From assembly GCA_017538365.1 (NCBI GenBank), contig JAFYIZ010000016.1, positions 1-39,337 on the forward strand: a stretch of DNA of 39,337 nucleotides. Reading direction: 5' to 3'. Below are positions 1,703-16,736 of this stretch, in pieces. Position 1 is the first letter of the stretch; every line of letters starts with the position of its first letter. This DNA is from a bacterium. GTDB lineage: Bacteria > UBP6 > UBA1177. The notes beneath the pieces are model-generated. The model had not been told where the DNA came from and ran no database searches. It saw only the letters and a list, made by a program, of their open reading frames with translations. A program made the position numbers and the translations under genes.

Positions 1703-2896
1703 ATGGGCAAATACAGCAATTTGGTAAAAAACCTCGGAACGGACACGGATAAAATCAAGTTCACGTTTATAAAAGGAAAGTACTCCGGCGGTGAATTTTC
1801 CATCCGTGAAGGGCAGAAACTTTCTATCGGCCGTGATATTTCTTCCGATGTTGCAATCGTAGATTCGAAAGTCAGCCGCAATCACGCTTCAATAACGGCA
1901 CGCGACGGCAAACTTTTCATCGAAGACCACAACAGCACGAACGGAACTTATGTAAACGGCGAAAAACTGGGACCTTCGATCGAAACGGAACTCAAAATCG
2001 GATCGAATTTCTCTGTCGGTGACTCAACGATTCTTGTCGGTGACGAAGCCGCTCCGGATGAAAACGCGCCTGAAGTTTCATTCAGAGAAAACAGTTTCAC
2101 CAAATCCAGAAAAGCTCAGGAAAAAACGATCCCCGAAACAAAGGTTGAAACTCCGGAAGAAGATGAAGAAGAGGCATTCACGCTTGACGAGTCACTTCAG
2201 GTTATAACTACAGATCAGCCGGAATCTCCGGACAAAGTCAATATCGGAAAACTCAACCTCAAGAAAACGACAAAATCGGATATTGAAAAGGATAACCTTG
2301 CAAATGCCAGCACTTCATCTACCGGCAGCCTTTCGGCAATGGATGTAGCCGATCTGCTCAAGATTCTCGCTCAGTCGGCTTCCGCAGGATATCTCAAGCT
2401 CAATATAACTTCTCCTTTTGCGGAACAGATCGAAGTGACAATCAGCACAACCGGAATCGTTGCCTGCGAATCGATCACAAACAAGAATTTCGCTCAGGAA
2501 AAAGCTCTTTCCCGTGCACTTCTGGCGCGTGACGGCGAATATTCGTTCAAAATCGACAACGCACCGAAAGAGGAAGTTGCAAACAGACAGCTTGAAGACG
2601 TTTTCATGGAAATTTCCAACCAGAAAGAAAACCTTACCAAGTACAGAAGTATTGCAAACAACGGAAAACTTGAGTTTGCGAACCCGATCAAAGGAAAACT
2701 TTCCGATCTTTCCAAAACAGAGCTCGACACGCTTCAGTTCATGGTAAATTCAAAAGAAGTCATCAAATATCTCAATGCTTTTGCAGATAACGACGACTTC
2801 ATTCTCATGTCGGAAATCGTGAAATACCTTGATTTGGGCATCATTTCCGACGGCAAGAAATTCGATAAACTTTCCGATGACATCCTCGATTTTTAA
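1703..2896 (+). CDS. FHA domain protein with C-terminal DUF4388 (PATAN-like) domain
   Basis: The 397-residue cytoplasmic protein has no signal peptide. Residues about 20-113 form a forkhead-associated phosphothreonine-binding domain, with the hallmark GRD at 43-45, SRNH at 58-61 and NSTNGTYVNG at 77-86. A low-complexity acidic linker (about 115-205, with an EEDEEEA run) follows. Residues about 208-284 resemble the DUF4388/PATAN family (SGSL-type start, DLLK core, GxIVAC turn, ALSRALLARDGEYSF end), a module found in bacterial signalling proteins. FHA domains read Ser/Thr kinase phosphorylation, so this is probably a regulatory adaptor. No kinase or phosphatase gene lies beside it. GAGAGGAG precedes the ATG. 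The gene ends 3 bases before aroE. An AT-rich TATTATAGTAT stretch at 1656-1666 could hold its -10 element, but no well-spaced -35 is evident. Confidence 0.88.
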   Translation: MGKYSNLVKNLGTDTDKIKFTFIKGKYSGGEFSIREGQKLSIGRDISSDVAIVDSKVSRNHASITARDGKLFIEDHNSTNGTYVNGEKLGPSIETELKIGSNFSVGDSTILVGDEAAPDENAPEVSFRENSFTKSRKAQEKTIPETKVETPEEDEEEAFTLDESLQVITTDQPESPDKVNIGKLNLKKTTKSDIEKDNLANASTSSTGSLSAMDVADLLKILAQSASAGYLKLNITSPFAEQIEVTISTTGIVACESITNKNFAQEKALSRALLARDGEYSFKIDNAPKEEVANRQLEDVFMEISNQKENLTKYRSIANNGKLEFANPIKGKLSDLSKTELDTLQFMVNSKEVIKYLNAFADNDDFILMSEIVKYLDLGIISDGKKFDKLSDDILDF

Positions 2897-2899
2897 AAA

Positions 2900-3652
2900 T
2901 TGATCCCTCAGAATCATACAAATTTCATCTACATCTGGGGAAACCCGCTCGATTTTTCGCTTTCGCCTTTTTTTCAGGAACACTGCGCGATTCTTGCAGG
3001 CAAGCGCATTCTTTACAAAATTTTCAGAGGAAGCGCACGGGAATTTCTGCAACTTTTAAAAAGCGGAAGATGTATCGGCGCAAATGTCACGATCCCGCAT
3101 AAAATCGAAGCGGCCGAGCTTTGTGACGAACTTACCGAAAAAGCTCGAAAGGCTGGAAGCGTCAACACGATTTTTAAAGAAAACGGCAGAATAATCGGCG
3201 ACAACACCGATGGAGCAGGGCTCGTAAAATGGCTAAAAATCAAGGGCGCTGACCTCGAAAGATGCGCGATTTTAGGCAACGGCGGCAGCGCAAGATCAAT
3301 TGCAGCAGCGCTTTCTGAAGAGAAGTGCAAAATCACGATTTTCGGTCGCACTGAAAAAGGATGGGAGAAAAATTTCGGCGGATTCAAAAATCTTTCCGAG
3401 TGGGAAAACGATGTTTTCACGATAAGCACACTGCCCTTCGAGGTTAAAGGAAAAAATCTTATAAACATCGGATATTCCAGCGGAAATATTTCAATTGACG
3501 CAACAATGATGCTTGCATTCCAAGGCTGGCTGGGTGCTCAGAGATGGTTCGGGGAAACCGTTTCGGAGGAAACTTTTGCGCGTGTTACGCTCCTTCATGC
3601 AAAAGCCCAGTCAAATCAGAAGTTTATATTAAATCTGGCGGCTAAAAAATGA
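2900..3652 (+). CDS. aroE: shikimate dehydrogenase
   Basis: AroE reduces 3-dehydroshikimate to shikimate with NADPH in aromatic amino acid synthesis. The 250-residue protein has the substrate-binding Ser pair (Ser20 and Ser22), the NVTIPHK motif with catalytic Lys68, and the GDNTDG motif with catalytic Asp104. A Rossmann-type cofactor loop (GNGGSARS, about 126-133) and a basic GRTEKG stretch follow, the latter suggesting NADP preference. The C-terminal LHAKAQ...Q motif is present. It is a little shorter than typical AroE (about 270 residues). The start is taken as TTG three bases after the FHA stop, because the next in-frame Met would remove the substrate-binding N-terminus. There is no clear ribosome binding site, so translation is probably coupled to the upstream gene. 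It overlaps the rsmB-type gene by 4 bases. Confidence 0.92.
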   Translation: MIPQNHTNFIYIWGNPLDFSLSPFFQEHCAILAGKRILYKIFRGSAREFLQLLKSGRCIGANVTIPHKIEAAELCDELTEKARKAGSVNTIFKENGRIIGDNTDGAGLVKWLKIKGADLERCAILGNGGSARSIAAALSEEKCKITIFGRTEKGWEKNFGGFKNLSEWENDVFTISTLPFEVKGKNLINIGYSSGNISIDATMMLAFQGWLGAQRWFGETVSEETFARVTLLHAKAQSNQKFILNLAAKK

Positions 3653-11987: not shown

Positions 11988-12000
11988 AAGGAGAGTGCCT

Positions 12001-14004
12001 ATGAAAAAACTCATCATTTTCCTGATTTTAGCGATGGTTTTCGCAGTTTCGTGCGGCGGCTCGAAAAAAACTGAAAACGATGCGGATCTGTTTCCGGATG
12101 GAGATAAAATTAATGATGAAGAAGCGGTCGGACCGGATGATGAAGACGAAGATAAGGAAAAAAGTGACAGCGATGCCGACACCGCGGAAGAGGAAATTGT
12201 CGCCAAAATATCTTCTTTTGCCGAAATATGCACCGGACAGACTGATTGCGCCGGGGAATGCCCCGAAAAGGGAAGCGCTCTTTACGGCCAGGATGCTCAG
12301 TATGCCGCCCTCGGATACTGTGTTCCTCAGAGTTTTTCTATCGACAGTTCTGTTGAAAATGAGCCGACTGTTATTGATCTCAATACCAGACTTGAATGGC
12401 AGCAGACATTTTCCGACGCAATAGACGTATGCGAAACTTCAGAGACATCGGAAAATGCATGTAAAATATGCGAAAATGCGGAAAATTACTGCAAAAATCT
12501 GAATTACGGTGGACACAGTGACTGGAGACTTCCCGATATTAAAGAACTTCTTTCCATCACCAATATCGCAAAATATCCTGCAATTGATACGGCTTATTTT
12601 CCAGGCACTCCGTCAGGTAAATTCTGGACATCATCCTATTTCTGGCAGGACGATATAAGATCAGGCTGGGGTTCACAAGTGGCCTGGACAGTAAACTTCA
12701 GCGACGGGGCTTCCAACGCTGAACCTCTGACTTTATATTCATCCGGAGAGATAGTGAAACACTCCGGTATTCGTGCGCGGTGTGTCAGAGGCAAAACTCT
12801 GCCGGGCAGTCAGCTGACCGCTTTAACCATAGGCGAAGAAAAGATCATAGTTGATGCAAAAACGGATTTTATCTGGTTATCTGGCTATGGAACCGTATCA
12901 AGCTGGGAAGAGGCTCTTCCGTACTGCGAGAATCTGACTTATGCGGGCATCTCCGACTGGAGACTTCCCAACAAAAACGAGCTTACATCTTTTTTTAACT
13001 ACAGTTTAAAATATCCCTCTACTATGGACTATTTTCTTTCGTCTACATCTTCCGGAAGCAGCTTTGTCTGGGTTGTCAGATTTTCCGGGACAGCTCCGCA
13101 CATTGCGGAAAGAGTTGAAAAGCATCCTTTTGACGAAGTTTTCGGAACTACTCACACTTATGCAGTGCGCTGCGTCGCCAAAAATCCGTGCGCAGAAGAC
13201 GAAATATGGAACGGAAAAGAATGTGTAATGCACGCTTGCTCTGCAGTCAAATGTCCCAAGGATGAACATTCAACAGGCAAATGTACTGTTTTGGGTATTG
13301 ATTCTTATAAATGCGGCTGTGTCGAAGGCTGGTTCTGGAACGGCGAAAAGTGTGAAGATCCCTGTCAGGCAGAGCCGTGCAAAGATATGCCGCACTCGAC
13401 AGGAATATGCAGCGCTAAAGACTGGAATAAATATATCTGCGGATGTAATGGAGGCTATTTCTGGGACGGAGAGAAATGTATGAATCCTTGCGATGCTGAG
13501 CCTTGCAAAAATATGCCAAACACAACAGGAAAATGCAACGCTAAAGACTGGAACAGATATATCTGTGAATGTGATGCCGAATCTTTCTGGAGCTCCAGCG
13601 AAGAATGCATTGACTCTTGCGATCCCAACCCGTGCGACATGCCGCATTCTACCGGCCTCTGCAAAAGATCGTCAGATAATGTCTCCCCTATCTGCGAATG
13701 TGAAGAAGGCTATTTCTGGAACGGTATCAAAAGAGGATGCGTCGATCCGTGTGAAACAGCCAAATGCGATAAACCGCATACAACGGGAATATGCACAGGT
13801 AAAAGTGTGGATGAATATTACTGCGAATGCGAAGGATATTATTTTTGGAATCCTTACTCATACTCGTGCATAACCATTTGCGAAACTATTTCGTGCCGCA
13901 ATATTCCACATGCAACCGGCGACTGCACGCCTATAAGCAAAACCGAATACCAGTGTGACTGCGAAAACGGCTATAATTGGAATGGTGAGGAATGCCTTCC
14001 TTGA
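12001..14004 (+). CDS. modular lipoprotein 5: two DUF1566 domains then six EGF-like units
   Basis: The ATG at 12001 follows AAAAGGAGAG and starts the signal peptide MKKLIIFLI with lipobox AVSC (Cys18); an in-frame ATG two codons earlier is less well placed. The 667-residue protein has an acidic linker, then the conserved ICTGQTDC...YGQDAQYA...PQSFSID...NEPTVID block (about 75-135). Two DUF1566 domains follow (SDWRLP near 176 and 319), and then six EGF-like units (about 405-667) with spacing C....C......HSTGxC....C.C..G.FW.G..C. The last residue group ends at a unit boundary. It is the last gene of the array; a convergent DUF4143 gene follows 54 bases later, and no terminator hairpin was found between them. 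Confidence 0.87.
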   Translation: MKKLIIFLILAMVFAVSCGGSKKTENDADLFPDGDKINDEEAVGPDDEDEDKEKSDSDADTAEEEIVAKISSFAEICTGQTDCAGECPEKGSALYGQDAQYAALGYCVPQSFSIDSSVENEPTVIDLNTRLEWQQTFSDAIDVCETSETSENACKICENAENYCKNLNYGGHSDWRLPDIKELLSITNIAKYPAIDTAYFPGTPSGKFWTSSYFWQDDIRSGWGSQVAWTVNFSDGASNAEPLTLYSSGEIVKHSGIRARCVRGKTLPGSQLTALTIGEEKIIVDAKTDFIWLSGYGTVSSWEEALPYCENLTYAGISDWRLPNKNELTSFFNYSLKYPSTMDYFLSSTSSGSSFVWVVRFSGTAPHIAERVEKHPFDEVFGTTHTYAVRCVAKNPCAEDEIWNGKECVMHACSAVKCPKDEHSTGKCTVLGIDSYKCGCVEGWFWNGEKCEDPCQAEPCKDMPHSTGICSAKDWNKYICGCNGGYFWDGEKCMNPCDAEPCKNMPNTTGKCNAKDWNRYICECDAESFWSSSEECIDSCDPNPCDMPHSTGLCKRSSDNVSPICECEEGYFWNGIKRGCVDPCETAKCDKPHTTGICTGKSVDEYYCECEGYYFWNPYSYSCITICETISCRNIPHATGDCTPISKTEYQCDCENGYNWNGEECLP

Positions 14005-14020
14005 GCAAGTGATCGAATCT

Positions 14021-14048
14021 TTCTACTCAAACGGCCTGATGATTTCCT
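14021..14048 (-). pseudogene. vestigial 3' end of the PreT-like gene
   Basis: These 28 bases match the 3' end of the PreT-like gene (15565-15592) at 25 of 28 positions, in the same orientation. Read on the minus strand they would code EIIRPFE-stop against EIIKLFE-stop in the intact gene. The preceding codon is TAG where the intact gene has CAG. The copy lies 10 bases from the stop codon of the DUF4143 gene, so that gene sits between the true and the vestigial 3' ends. Confidence 0.6.
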
Positions 14049-14058
14049 ACGGCAAAAA

Positions 14059-15396
14059 TCACAAAAAAGGAGTCATGTAAACAGGAAGGCATGTAGTCTG
14101 ACCGTCTTTCTGAAGGTCTTTTGTGTAAAGCAAAATCCTTTCCGAAATCCGCGAAGAAAACTTTTCGCAGAAAGCATCCAGAGATTTATGTGTTTTATAT
14201 CCCGAAGATTTGACCTCGACCGGAACCAGTTTGTTCCCTTTCGACAAAAGGAAATCGACTTCGTAGCTGTGGTTGCCTGATGCCGGAAAAGTGTAGTAGT
14301 AAAGCTCGTAACCTGAAGCCCGGAGCATCTGTGCGACAACATTTTCATAAATGTAGCCCAAATTGGCTTCAAGTTTGTCGGAAAGGAGCTTCTGATAGAT
14401 GATATTTTCGGTGAAATCCTTGTCCCAGAAGGCCAGAGTAACAAAAAGTCCCGTGTCTCCCATAAACATTTTGAAGCGTGTAGTTTCCCGACTCAAAGCA
14501 AGTCCTGCATTCGGGTCTGAAGAATGATACGCGATATTGACTATCATGCTTTCATAAAGCGTTTCAAGCAGTTCAAAAGTCTTTTCCTTTCTGATGTTTT
14601 CCACAACCGTAGTCACTTGATAATGCTTTTCAGTTTTGCCGAGTTCGGACGGTATGGCGCGGAACATCGCGCGAAGTTTGCCTGTCGAATCGAGCTTGTG
14701 AAGGTCTTCGATATAGAGATTGATTATTCTTCTTTTAGCGGCATCTACAGCCTGAAGATTGTTGGTTTCAAGATAGGTTTCAACTGCCTGAGGCATTCCG
14801 CCTACCAGCATATAAAGTCTGAAATCGCGCATGATTTTGCGGTTTACGGCTTCTCCGAGAGCAGTGCGGTTCAAAAAAAGATCTTTCAGAATCGGCATCG
14901 TTGCAGTATCGCCTATCGCCCATGAAAACTCCTCATAATCCATCGGAAACATCTGTATGCGCTCTTCCTCGCTAGGAATAACGATGTTCTGCACATTCTG
15001 CTTGATGCTGATAAGCGAACCTGTTTCGATGTAATCGTATCTTCCGTCTTCAACAAGATGTTTGATCGCCTGTCTCGCATCAGGCCTGAGCTGCACTTCA
15101 TCGAAAATAATAACGGATCTGCGTTCATAAAGGTTTACGCGGTAAAGAATCTGCAACCGCATGAAAAAGTAGTTGAGATCTGCAAAACCGAGATCCAACA
15201 GATTTCGGACATCTGCCGACAGCTTGGAACAGTCGATCAGAATATAGGATTTATACTCGTTTGCAGCAAACTGCCTTGCCAAAGTTGACTTCCCGACACG
15301 TCTTGCACCTTCTATCAGCAAAGCACTTTTTCCGTTGGATTCTGCCTTCCATTTAAGCATTTTTTCGTAAGCTTTTCTCTTAAAAATTTTCTCCAA
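14059..15396 (-). CDS. AAA ATPase with DUF4143 C-terminal domain
   Basis: This is an ATP-binding protein of the AAA_14/DUF4143 family (445 residues from the chosen start). Walker A is GARRVGKS (about 30-37), a Walker B-like DEVQ follows at about 100, and ETGSL is the sensor region. The C-terminal DUF4143 part has the PVEVKSS motif seen in nuclease-like folds. The cellular role of these ATPases is not settled; they are often multicopy and patchily distributed. A TTG start at 15396 is preferred because GGAGGT lies just upstream; a TTG at 15408 would overlap that site, and an ATG 12 codons in is an alternative. It is convergent to the lipoprotein array and flanked by repeated copies of the PreT-like gene end, which suggests acquisition by insertion. 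Confidence 0.88.
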   Translation of the reverse strand: MEKIFKRKAYEKMLKWKAESNGKSALLIEGARRVGKSTLARQFAANEYKSYILIDCSKLSADVRNLLDLGFADLNYFFMRLQILYRVNLYERRSVIIFDEVQLRPDARQAIKHLVEDGRYDYIETGSLISIKQNVQNIVIPSEEERIQMFPMDYEEFSWAIGDTATMPILKDLFLNRTALGEAVNRKIMRDFRLYMLVGGMPQAVETYLETNNLQAVDAAKRRIINLYIEDLHKLDSTGKLRAMFRAIPSELGKTEKHYQVTTVVENIRKEKTFELLETLYESMIVNIAYHSSDPNAGLALSRETTRFKMFMGDTGLFVTLAFWDKDFTENIIYQKLLSDKLEANLGYIYENVVAQMLRASGYELYYYTFPASGNHSYEVDFLLSKGNKLVPVEVKSSGYKTHKSLDAFCEKFSSRISERILLYTKDLQKDGQTTCLPVYMTPFL

Positions 15397-15424
15397 AATG
15401 ACCTCCAAAAATCAACTGCACACT

Positions 15425-15453
15425 AGCATACTGATTTTATTACAATTTTTCAA
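15425..15453 (-). promoter_or_regulatory. putative promoter of the DUF4143 ATPase gene
   Basis: On the minus strand a TTGAAA -35 (15448-15453) and a TATGCT -10 (15425-15430) are 17 bp apart, about 30 bp upstream of the start codon. The gene can thus be transcribed apart from the PreT-like gene upstream. Confidence 0.45.
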
Positions 15454-15483
15454 GAAAATACTGCTATCCGCAAATTTTTTTTA

Positions 15484-15549
15484 GCCAAAATTACAGCTGA
15501 GCGCAAAATCTTTTTCGCCGAAATTACAGCTGAGCGCAAAATTTGAAAG
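15484..15549. repeat. two 33-bp tandem repeats in the DUF4143 upstream gap
   Basis: Units at 15484-15516 and 15517-15549 share GCC(A/G)AAATTACAGCTGAG followed by CGCAAAAT; a half unit (CCGCAAATTTTTTTTAGCC, about 15468-15486) precedes them. The 15-mer GAGCGCAAAATCTTT recurs at 38163-38177 and a related GCGCAAAATTTG word occurs near 36273-36284 on the minus strand. Confidence 0.7.
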
Positions 15550-15566
15550 GTTCTCAGATCTGTTTT

Positions 15567-16736
15567 CTACTCAAACAACTTGATGATTTCCTGAGCCGCT
15601 TTGCGGCCTGAAGATATCGCTTCGACGATGGTGGAACCTCCCGTTTTGCAGTCGCCTGCGTAAACAAGTTTCGCGCTGTCATCGTTTTTGGTGTCGGAGC
15701 GGCTTCCGACTGCTCTGATGATGAGGTCGAAATAAGGAAGTGCGATCGAAGAATTTTCGACCGGGATCCATTTTTCACCGTCGAAGAAGTTTCTTCTCAC
15801 GGTGAGGCAGAGTTTGTTTCCGATCTTTTCGATCTTTTCGGGGCTCGTCATGCCGTTGAGGTCGATCCTGTGGTTTACGAGATCGAGGTATTCAGCTTTC
15901 GAGATTCGCATGTCCGAAATGCGGCGTCTTACGAACATTTCGACCGATGCCGCGCCGTTTCTCATCGCTGTCTGGGCGCAGTCCGCCGCGACGTTTCCGC
16001 CTCCGATGACCGCAACGTGACCGTTCGTCTGGAAATCTTCGGGATGGTAGAGGAAATCGGTGTATGAAACGCTGAGTTCTTCTCCCGGGATCTTGAGTTC
16101 AAGGCAGTTGGGCTCGCCGGTTGAGACGATGACCGCATCGAACCGGTTGAGAAGTTCGACAGTGTGGCTGACTTTCGCGTTGAGCTTGAGAGTAACTAGA
16201 TCGTTGCTGCTGATAAACTCCCAGTCGCGCTCGATTACTTCGTGCGGAAGCCTGTTTTCGGGAATCATGCAGAGTGCGCCGCCGATCTCGTGACGACCTT
16301 CAAAAATCGTGACTTTGAAGCCGTTTTTAACAAGAAGCGCAGTTGCCGCAAGCCCGGCAGGCCCTGCTCCGACGATGGCAACAGTGTGACCGTTGTGCGG
16401 AAGAGTCACCTTTTCAGGATGATCCACCCTGAAATTGTGCAGAATAGTCGCCTGAACTCTCGGAATGTTGACGGGAAAGTCGATTCCCGAGCGGGTGCAC
16501 GCCTTCATGCAGAATTTGTCAGGACAAATCAAACCGCAGGTCTGACCCATAGGATTGACGCGGGTGATCGCCGCGACCGCCTCGTTCCACTCCTCCGCCT
16601 TCGAATACTGGATGAATTCACGCGGATTGCAGCTGACCGGACATGCATTCATGCAGGGTTCCGTTTTGCAGTTGAGGCAGCGTTTCAGCTCCTCGCGAAG
16701 CTGTATCTTGGTAAGATAAAGTGATTTTTCGGACAT
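15567..16736 (-). CDS. PreT/GltD-like FAD-NAD(P)H oxidoreductase with N-terminal Fe-S domain
   Basis: The 389-residue cytoplasmic flavoprotein has an N-terminal Fer4_20-type domain with two cysteine sets (Cys20, 23, 28, 32 and Cys67, 71, 76, 80) for two [4Fe-4S] clusters. An FAD Rossmann loop GAGPAG (123-128) and an NAD(P)H loop GGGNVA (245-250) follow. A final AGDCKTGGSTIVEA motif contacts FAD. This layout is shared by the glutamate synthase small subunit and by PreT, the electron-input subunit of dihydropyrimidine dehydrogenase; the CTRSGID and NIPRVQ stretches resemble PreT. No large subunit (GltB or PreA) lies next to it, so the electron acceptor is unknown. It follows the isocitrate dehydrogenase-type gene by 21 bases and probably shares its transcript, though its ribosome binding site is weak. 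Confidence 0.85.
   Translation of the reverse strand: MSEKSLYLTKIQLREELKRCLNCKTEPCMNACPVSCNPREFIQYSKAEEWNEAVAAITRVNPMGQTCGLICPDKFCMKACTRSGIDFPVNIPRVQATILHNFRVDHPEKVTLPHNGHTVAIVGAGPAGLAATALLVKNGFKVTIFEGRHEIGGALCMIPENRLPHEVIERDWEFISSNDLVTLKLNAKVSHTVELLNRFDAVIVSTGEPNCLELKIPGEELSVSYTDFLYHPEDFQTNGHVAVIGGGNVAADCAQTAMRNGAASVEMFVRRRISDMRISKAEYLDLVNHRIDLNGMTSPEKIEKIGNKLCLTVRRNFFDGEKWIPVENSSIALPYFDLIIRAVGSRSDTKNDDSAKLVYAGDCKTGGSTIVEAISSGRKAAQEIIKLFE

Follow-up and report, generated by a model that had tools for sequence, protein, structure and literature searches.

The 39,337-nucleotide contig JAFYIZ010000016.1 (assembly GCA_017538365.1, UBA1177), analysed at its full length and hereafter called the window, carries a gene for a DUF4143 ATPase that lies between the intact 3' end of a preT-like gene and a second, displaced copy of that end. 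Whatever the mechanism, it is highly probable that the ATPase gene was inserted at the end of the preT-like gene and that the resident end was displaced by it. More specifically, we read the arrangement as site-specific, integron-like cassette insertion at gene 3' ends, with a probability of about 0.5.

The preT-like gene end and its displaced copy

All the genomes in this analysis are metagenome assemblies. The genus set comprises 15 genomes, including that of the window (G000, 2.32 Mb); G numbers denote genomes of the genus, C numbers contigs, and L numbers loci. The group is uncultured and has been found in the guts of cud-chewing animals; yak, goat, buffalo, and reindeer are among the sources of the relatives' metagenomes.

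A reading of the window from the sequence alone (the sequence-only reading) had noted that 25 of 28 bases at the end of the preT-like gene recur beside the ATPase stop codon, in the same orientation and including the stop codon (EIIKLFE and EIIRPFE). The pattern match bore this out: the 28-mer AGGAAATCATCAAGTTGTTTGAGTAGAA is exact at the true gene end and has three mismatches at the displaced copy (Table 1), with no further match in the window and none in 100 dinucleotide shuffles. The two copies begin 1,544 bp from each other, in agreement with the approximately 1.54 kb proposed. A 25-base degenerate version, allowing up to three mismatches, retrieved only the same two sites from the whole genome (reversed control 0), as expected if the repeat is not a chance-level match. 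The gene labels were also sound: the domains of the PreT-like protein (Table 1) make its name a fair one, and the ATPase scored 80.1 bits for AAA_14 (cut-off 27) and 73.3 bits for DUF4143 (cut-off 28.1) in Pfam.

On the minus strand, a short spacer separates the preT-like gene from three repeats of about 33 bp, after which come the promoter, the ATPase gene, a few bases, and the displaced preT end; beyond this, a 669-aa lipoprotein-like gene lies on the opposite strand. The 33-bp repeats are real, since their 21-base core has exactly two copies in the genome, both at this locus; a third, degenerate copy was recognized by eye beside the promoter. The junction running from the ATPase 3' end through the displaced end to the lipoprotein gene is homologous in an independent assembly (UBA1177; G011:C11, L139; window 14083-13501, 93%), and therefore it is not a one-off assembly error.

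Orthologues of the preT-like gene are present in 12 of the 14 other genus genomes with 89-98% protein identity, split or partial in three of them. The region behind the gene was scanned in eleven relatives: preT is conserved, and the downstream content differs from genome to genome. Besides the window, three of the eleven have displaced preT ends. The interval between preT and the displaced end holds another DUF4143 gene in G002 and a forward lipoprotein-like gene in G014. In G013, an opposite-strand HepT/nucleotidyltransferase pair is followed by a displaced end, an 807-aa gene, and another displaced end, so that two units stand in a row. The sequence-only reading had tied the duplication to the ATPase gene, and this link is not tenable, because G013 and G014, without this ATPase, keep both preT ends around other genes.

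No second preT end was present in L044, L045, L046, L048, and L085 (at least 5.8 kb downstream scanned in each), nor in L042, L061, and L086, which are short contigs (1.4-3.0 kb past preT scanned). The single preT end lies 7-16 bp (L044, L046, and L085) or 86 bp (L086) from the end of a lipoprotein gene. Thus, the expectation that relatives without the unit have one preT end near a lipoprotein gene held, but the gene is not the one found in the window: preT joined directly to the 669-aa lipoprotein gene was sought and not seen in the DNA examined of G000, G014, G011, and G002. The displaced end has the same original flank (TTTGAGTAGAAAGATTCGATC) beside it in G000, G002, and G014, and then the same lipoprotein gene. 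A search for the 3' region of this gene gave matches in 6/15 genomes (E ≤1e-5). Those of G000, G014, and G011 are strong, and G002 has a piece of 44 bp at a contig end that is 100% identical to the window over this length; in G014 and G011, identity to the window over the last 0.4 kb is 98-99%. Because the lipoprotein 3' end is near-identical in G014 and G011 although their preT 3' ends differ from that of the window by several per cent, these comparisons suggest that the lipoprotein block was recently exchanged between species.

A survey of preT ends, with near-identical contexts merged and four weak matches counted as unrelated, gave 13 non-gene copies (that of the window included) and 10 gene ends. 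Displaced ends occur also away from preT; they are about 20 to about 50 bp long, with two mosaic relics in addition.

The empty site and the 33-bp KSDG site

A second host gene gave a direct comparison between an occupied and an empty site. In G006, a window-type ATPase unit stands behind a 315-aa gene ending in KSDGCSMLFI, and the last 49 bp of this gene recur at the ATPase stop codon. In G004 (L297), the arrangement is uninterrupted and has one 3' end, and the same holds for G014 (L230) up to the contig end. Positions 1-1319 of L177 align to 1-1325 of L297 (91%), and positions 2848-3315 to 1277-1743 (98%), so that between G006 and G004 an overlap of 49 bp flanks an insert of 1,528 bp, with G004 presenting the empty site.

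The two copies of the gene end in G006 are alike except near their right ends. There, the displaced copy agrees with the empty site (TTTATTTAATTTATTCC); the current gene end reads TTCATCTAAAAATTTC, which is also the left copy beside a window-type ATPase unit in G008. Judging from these matches, the current end of the KSDG gene in G006 probably came with the unit, by recombination inside the gene end. Since the two copies differ as donor and recipient, a plain target-site duplication is doubtful. The sequence-only proposal of an insertion into the preT 3' end with duplication of the target is thus retained as regards the insertion, for which the single 3' end of an uninterrupted second host gene and the constant end points of the unit at other loci both speak; its restriction to the ATPase does not stand, and simple duplication of the target is questionable.

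The KSDGCSMLF proteins (e.g., L177:372-1319, L293, and L288) look exported, have approximately 290-350 aa, and end in KSDGCSMLF(V/I); the one member scanned had no Pfam match. The tail may be a sorting or anchoring signal. The genes are sometimes found in tandem, for example three in G005:C8.

Each of the 15 genomes has between 4 and 13 copies of the pattern AAATCCGACGGCTGTTCGATGCTGTTT (up to three mismatches allowed), 112 in all, against 0 for the reversed control. From the loci examined, among the 112 copies listed, we obtained 59 distinct copies with flanks, permitting up to five mismatches and merging near-identical contexts. Thirty-five of these continue an open frame of at least 60 codons and are mostly KSDGCSMLF genes, a class that was defined by this rule of frame length and into which at least one displaced copy falls (L177 position 2864). 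In the remaining 24, conservation changes abruptly at the borders of a 33-bp stretch that ends in the stop codon, with 1.0-2 bits at almost all positions within it and mostly ≤0.5 outside. Many of the 24 start no more than a few bases from the stop codon of an unrelated gene and in the same orientation, as behind lipoprotein-like genes and the ATPase unit; in G000, such sites also follow a Schlafen AlbA_2-type gene (at 22 bp) and uncharacterised genes. Neighbours are reshuffled at the site: all 11 right-hand contexts seen at least twice are joined to more than one left-hand context, a somewhat generous count, as KSDG genes probably account for the whole of the left clusters L0, L1, and L7. Behind the window-type ATPase unit and its site, three different right contexts are found.

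The two kinds of site also meet each other. In G001:C226, a KSDG site is directly followed by a preT end, and in G011:C30, the left part of a KSDG site is fused to a preT end. The mosaic preT relics, at G008:C16 (L136) and G008:C66 (L137), consist of inner preT pieces fused to the 3' end and lie beside KSDG sites; the former keeps preT residues 67-96 and 230-251. In many copies, the preT end and the KSDG site have GCTGTTTG in common, with the stop codon two bases later, which we regard as no more than suggestive.

A third repeat was also observed. In the form TTTTGTGAAACCGTGCGCTAATC, it follows genes such as DUF4143 genes and others that we take to be KilA-N/Bro-like, and it is present in 13/15 genomes. 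In the form TTTTGTGAAACCGTGCGCTAATCAGCGTTGCGGACAC, it stands behind the stop codons of accessory genes outside the window, in G000:C10, C13, C16, C25, and others (e.g., L108, L109, and L110), with 11 copies in the window's genome and 19 in G009 (reversed control 0). None of its 36 distinct copies lies in an open frame of 60 codons, and it contains two small inverted repeats. A larger set of such sites may exist, with the preT and KSDG ends as two of its members. A phage origin of the sites was considered and rejected, as viral contigs gave 0 matches to exact patterns of the preT end, of the KSDG site, and of the third repeat.

DUF4143 ATPase units

The genome of the window has ten DUF4143 genes. 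The closest relatives of the window ATPase are in G009:C24 (95% protein identity) and G006:C1 (94%), together with an internally deleted copy in G008:C21, and none of the three adjoins preT. DNA homology to the window unit starts at 15543-15544 (15544 for L176 and L177, 15543-15544 for L199) and ends at 14057-14059 at all three loci. The three copies have some common sequence just outside the unit, and therefore they may stem from one insertion. A further case is the ATPase unit of G002, which is 97.8% identical over 1,389 bp to a unit of G012 that there follows a reversed lipoprotein gene and not preT.

Considering all the pairs of DUF4143 units with at least 85% identity (n=64, from 66 units), 56 have neither flank in common, 7 have one, and 1 has both. 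In the 56 pairs, the homology begins between 7 and 208 bp ahead of the start codon; its other end is within 25 bp of the stop codon in 37 of them. Among 66 control pairs of other genes from the preT regions, both flanks are common in 5, one in 54, and neither in 7, six of these seven involving one partial preT copy (L048).

The suggestion that similar direct repeats surround other DUF4143 genes was borne out as well. Of 82 matches, 72 loci were kept after the removal of short flanks and repeats, and 14 of them had a repeat score of at least 20, against 4 of 150 mismatched-flank controls, which include related families and are hence strict; some of the repeats are copies of upstream arrays and not gene ends. 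In L105 (5375-5430 and 6889-6944), and also in L195, L275, and L274, the upstream repeat array is copied directly behind the DUF4143 stop codon, about 1.5 kb away. Several DUF4143 genes have tandem repeats of about 30 bp just upstream of the promoter (GCGCTCAGCTGTAATTT in the window), which are possibly operator sites for the ATPase itself.

Table 1. Features around the ATPase gene of the window
Feature	Position	Strand	Basis or remark
PreT-like gene, 389 aa, Fer4_20 + Pyr_redox_2, resident host gene	15567..16736	-	ORF + domain scan
True 3' end of the preT-like gene (left repeat copy)	15565..15592	-	pattern match
Spacer from the preT end to the first 33-bp repeat, absent from other copies of the ATPase unit	15545..15564	-	homology comparison
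Mobile ATPase unit: 33-bp repeats, promoter, and ORF	14057..15544	-	same end points at three other loci
Tandem repeats of ~33 bp beside the promoter, two good and one degenerate; putatively operator-like	15446..15544	-	
ATPase gene, AAA_14 + DUF4143, 449 aa, TTG start	14059..15408	-	ORF + domain scan
Displaced preT-like 3' end including the stop codon (right repeat copy)	14021..14048	-	same kind in G002, G014, G013, and G011
Original preT 3' flank, common to G002 and G014	14005..14020	.	39 bp shorter in the window (deletion, by eye)
669-aa lipoprotein-like gene (Lcl_C), far side	11995..14004	+	

Mechanism, rival explanations, and known systems

According to the cassette reading, the ATPase gene with its repeats and promoter would be a mobile gene cassette, which would have entered at the preT-like 3' end by recombination within the last few dozen bases. 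At its left edge, the incoming unit would bring a version of the gene end of its own, leaving preT with an intact end, and the resident end would be pushed to the far side, where it would now be the 28-bp vestige before the lipoprotein gene. Each incoming unit would carry one copy of the site, and repeated rounds would build arrays such as that of G013. Elsewhere in the genus, other cassettes would have entered at preT in the same way, and so would cassettes behind the genes ending in KSDGCSMLF, whose last 33 bp are the sharply bounded site reused behind many unrelated genes. A recombinase would act on the site, and a free form of the cassette would exist.

Several results weigh against such a site-specific process. 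No dedicated recombinase was found. The 43 PF00589 matches of the genus include two in G000, one of which (L336) reaches the XerD cut-off, and the second (L337) is putatively XerC/D-like. None of the 16 of the 43 PF00589 matches that were scanned seems to qualify as an integron integrase (TIGR02249 / NF011946): member 1 scored 139.8 bits (cut-off 265) and 86.3 (cut-off 435), and the match with the best E-value of the 16, 1.5e-43, should also fall below the integron-integrase cut-off, its implied score being only slightly above that of member 1. The serine recombinase domain PF00239 is absent from G000 and present in 2/15 genus genomes. The preT and KSDG sites showed no attC-like folding, since on both strands their minimum free energies were -2.4 to 0 kcal/mol, no better than those of shuffles. 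Furthermore, the ATPase unit has a preT-type site in the window and KSDG-type sites elsewhere, and therefore the association of unit and site is not a permanent one. A strict att site would not be expected to leave displaced preT ends of varying length, as is the case here. Lastly, the HepT unit of G013 runs opposite to preT, and therefore not every unit meets the displaced preT end with its stop codon.

Given two tyrosine recombinases, one of them reaching the XerD cut-off, and no PF00239 protein in G000, the acting agent would therefore be the Xer proteins, an unrecognised enzyme, or no dedicated enzyme at all. Only the ATPase open reading frame is present in the unit, which encodes no integrase and no transposase (a transposase acting in trans was not searched for).

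The main rival to cassette insertion, possible though less probable, is homology-facilitated illegitimate recombination. A donor fragment carrying a preT 3' part and a cassette would recombine by homology within preT, and the other end would join illegitimately inside the 3' end of the recipient's preT, leaving that end behind. This would account better for the uneven lengths of the displaced preT ends, which start at scattered points and whose right flanks are those of the recipient (G000, G002, and G014 with TTTGAGTAGAAAGATTCGATC); the gene ends also vary with the unit, and an extract of PMC5361080 offers a published parallel in the immunity-gene arrays of Vibrio. However, illegitimate joins should scatter, and the left border of the 33-bp KSDG site is sharp in the non-gene copies. 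The identical end points of the ATPase unit at three loci argue in the same direction, with the reservation that these loci may descend from one insertion.

It is improbable, and need not be assumed, that preT or KSDG paralogues were duplicated in tandem and that the second copy was then replaced or decayed except for its 3' end. The relic at G008:C16, with inner preT pieces fused to the 3' end, and the similar one at C66 are what such a history would leave, and KSDG genes do stand in tandem. Conversely, the insertion seen on comparing G006 with G004 is clean and shows no further sign of a second gene copy, and in four genomes different units would each have had to spare nothing but the last 20-60 bp.

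Still less credible is the ordinary transposition of the ATPase unit with a target-site duplication, despite the defined unit ends and the direct repeats on both sides. The duplicated lengths are not fixed (29 bp in G000, about 42 in G014, about 50 in G002, and 49 in G006), the difference between the G006 copies near their right ends points to a donor origin, the unit holds no transposase and by eye no terminal inverted repeats, and units without the ATPase behave alike. A chance match or an assembly error, which short repeats in metagenome assemblies could invite through false joins, can practically be dismissed: the repeat is unique in the genome and absent from all 100 shuffles, on which grounds a chance match was rejected, the same junction recurs in an independent assembly, and there are parallel cases in G002, G013, G014, and G006.

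Cassette insertion at gene ends has partial counterparts among known systems. Like integrons (IntI, attI, and attC), it involves one-gene units in arrays, with one short site behind each stop codon and mostly one orientation, neighbours reshuffled at the site, and a resident site at one end. Unlike in integrons, no integron integrase appeared in the 16 recombinases scanned, the sites are coding 3' ends without attC folding, and there are at least two unrelated site types, either of which a unit can carry. Elements with an attB in a gene end likewise keep the gene intact with an end from the incoming DNA and displace the old end to the far side. Elements integrating into gene 3' ends encode their own integrase, whereas the unit described here holds the ATPase gene only. 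The pdif modules of Acinetobacter plasmids are single genes that lie between sites of about 28 bp and use the XerC/XerD of the host; the resemblance lies in the short sites around single genes and in the two PF00589 recombinases of G000, both putatively of Xer type and the only ones there, but no dif-like inverted arms were seen by eye in the preT or KSDG sites.

Immunity-gene arrays (Vibrio cholerae T6SS and Rhs) resemble the present loci in the repeated insertion at one place and in the 3' remnants of earlier genes that lie displaced beyond the new module, and the T6SS arrays arise by homology-facilitated illegitimate recombination, as far as the extract of PMC5361080 describes them. The pieces in that extract belong to toxin/immunity modules, whereas here they are the last 20-60 bp of a metabolic gene and the sharp 33-bp site of a second host gene. 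In the open-licence full-text literature, DUF4143 ATPases are hardly discussed, with a single paper mentioning DUF4143 by name, and nothing like a gene-end cassette system was found in the literature searched.

A broader proposal, which we put forward only tentatively, is that the genus has a lineage-specific, integron-like form of gene capture without an integron integrase, in which coding 3' ends (preT and the KSDGCSMLF family) would serve as attachment sites for XerC/XerD or an enzyme as yet unrecognised, and the DUF4143 AAA ATPases would be the commonest passengers or even part of the machinery.

As regards the family, the DUF4143 ATPases of this genus behave like compact mobile genes with definable ends. 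If a recombinase works the gene-end sites, bacteria would have, besides integrons, a second route for collecting single genes while leaving their neighbours unharmed, and the genes so collected would include those for toxin-antitoxin systems and surface proteins. The resident sites, the empty site, and the 33-bp consensus make the system testable.

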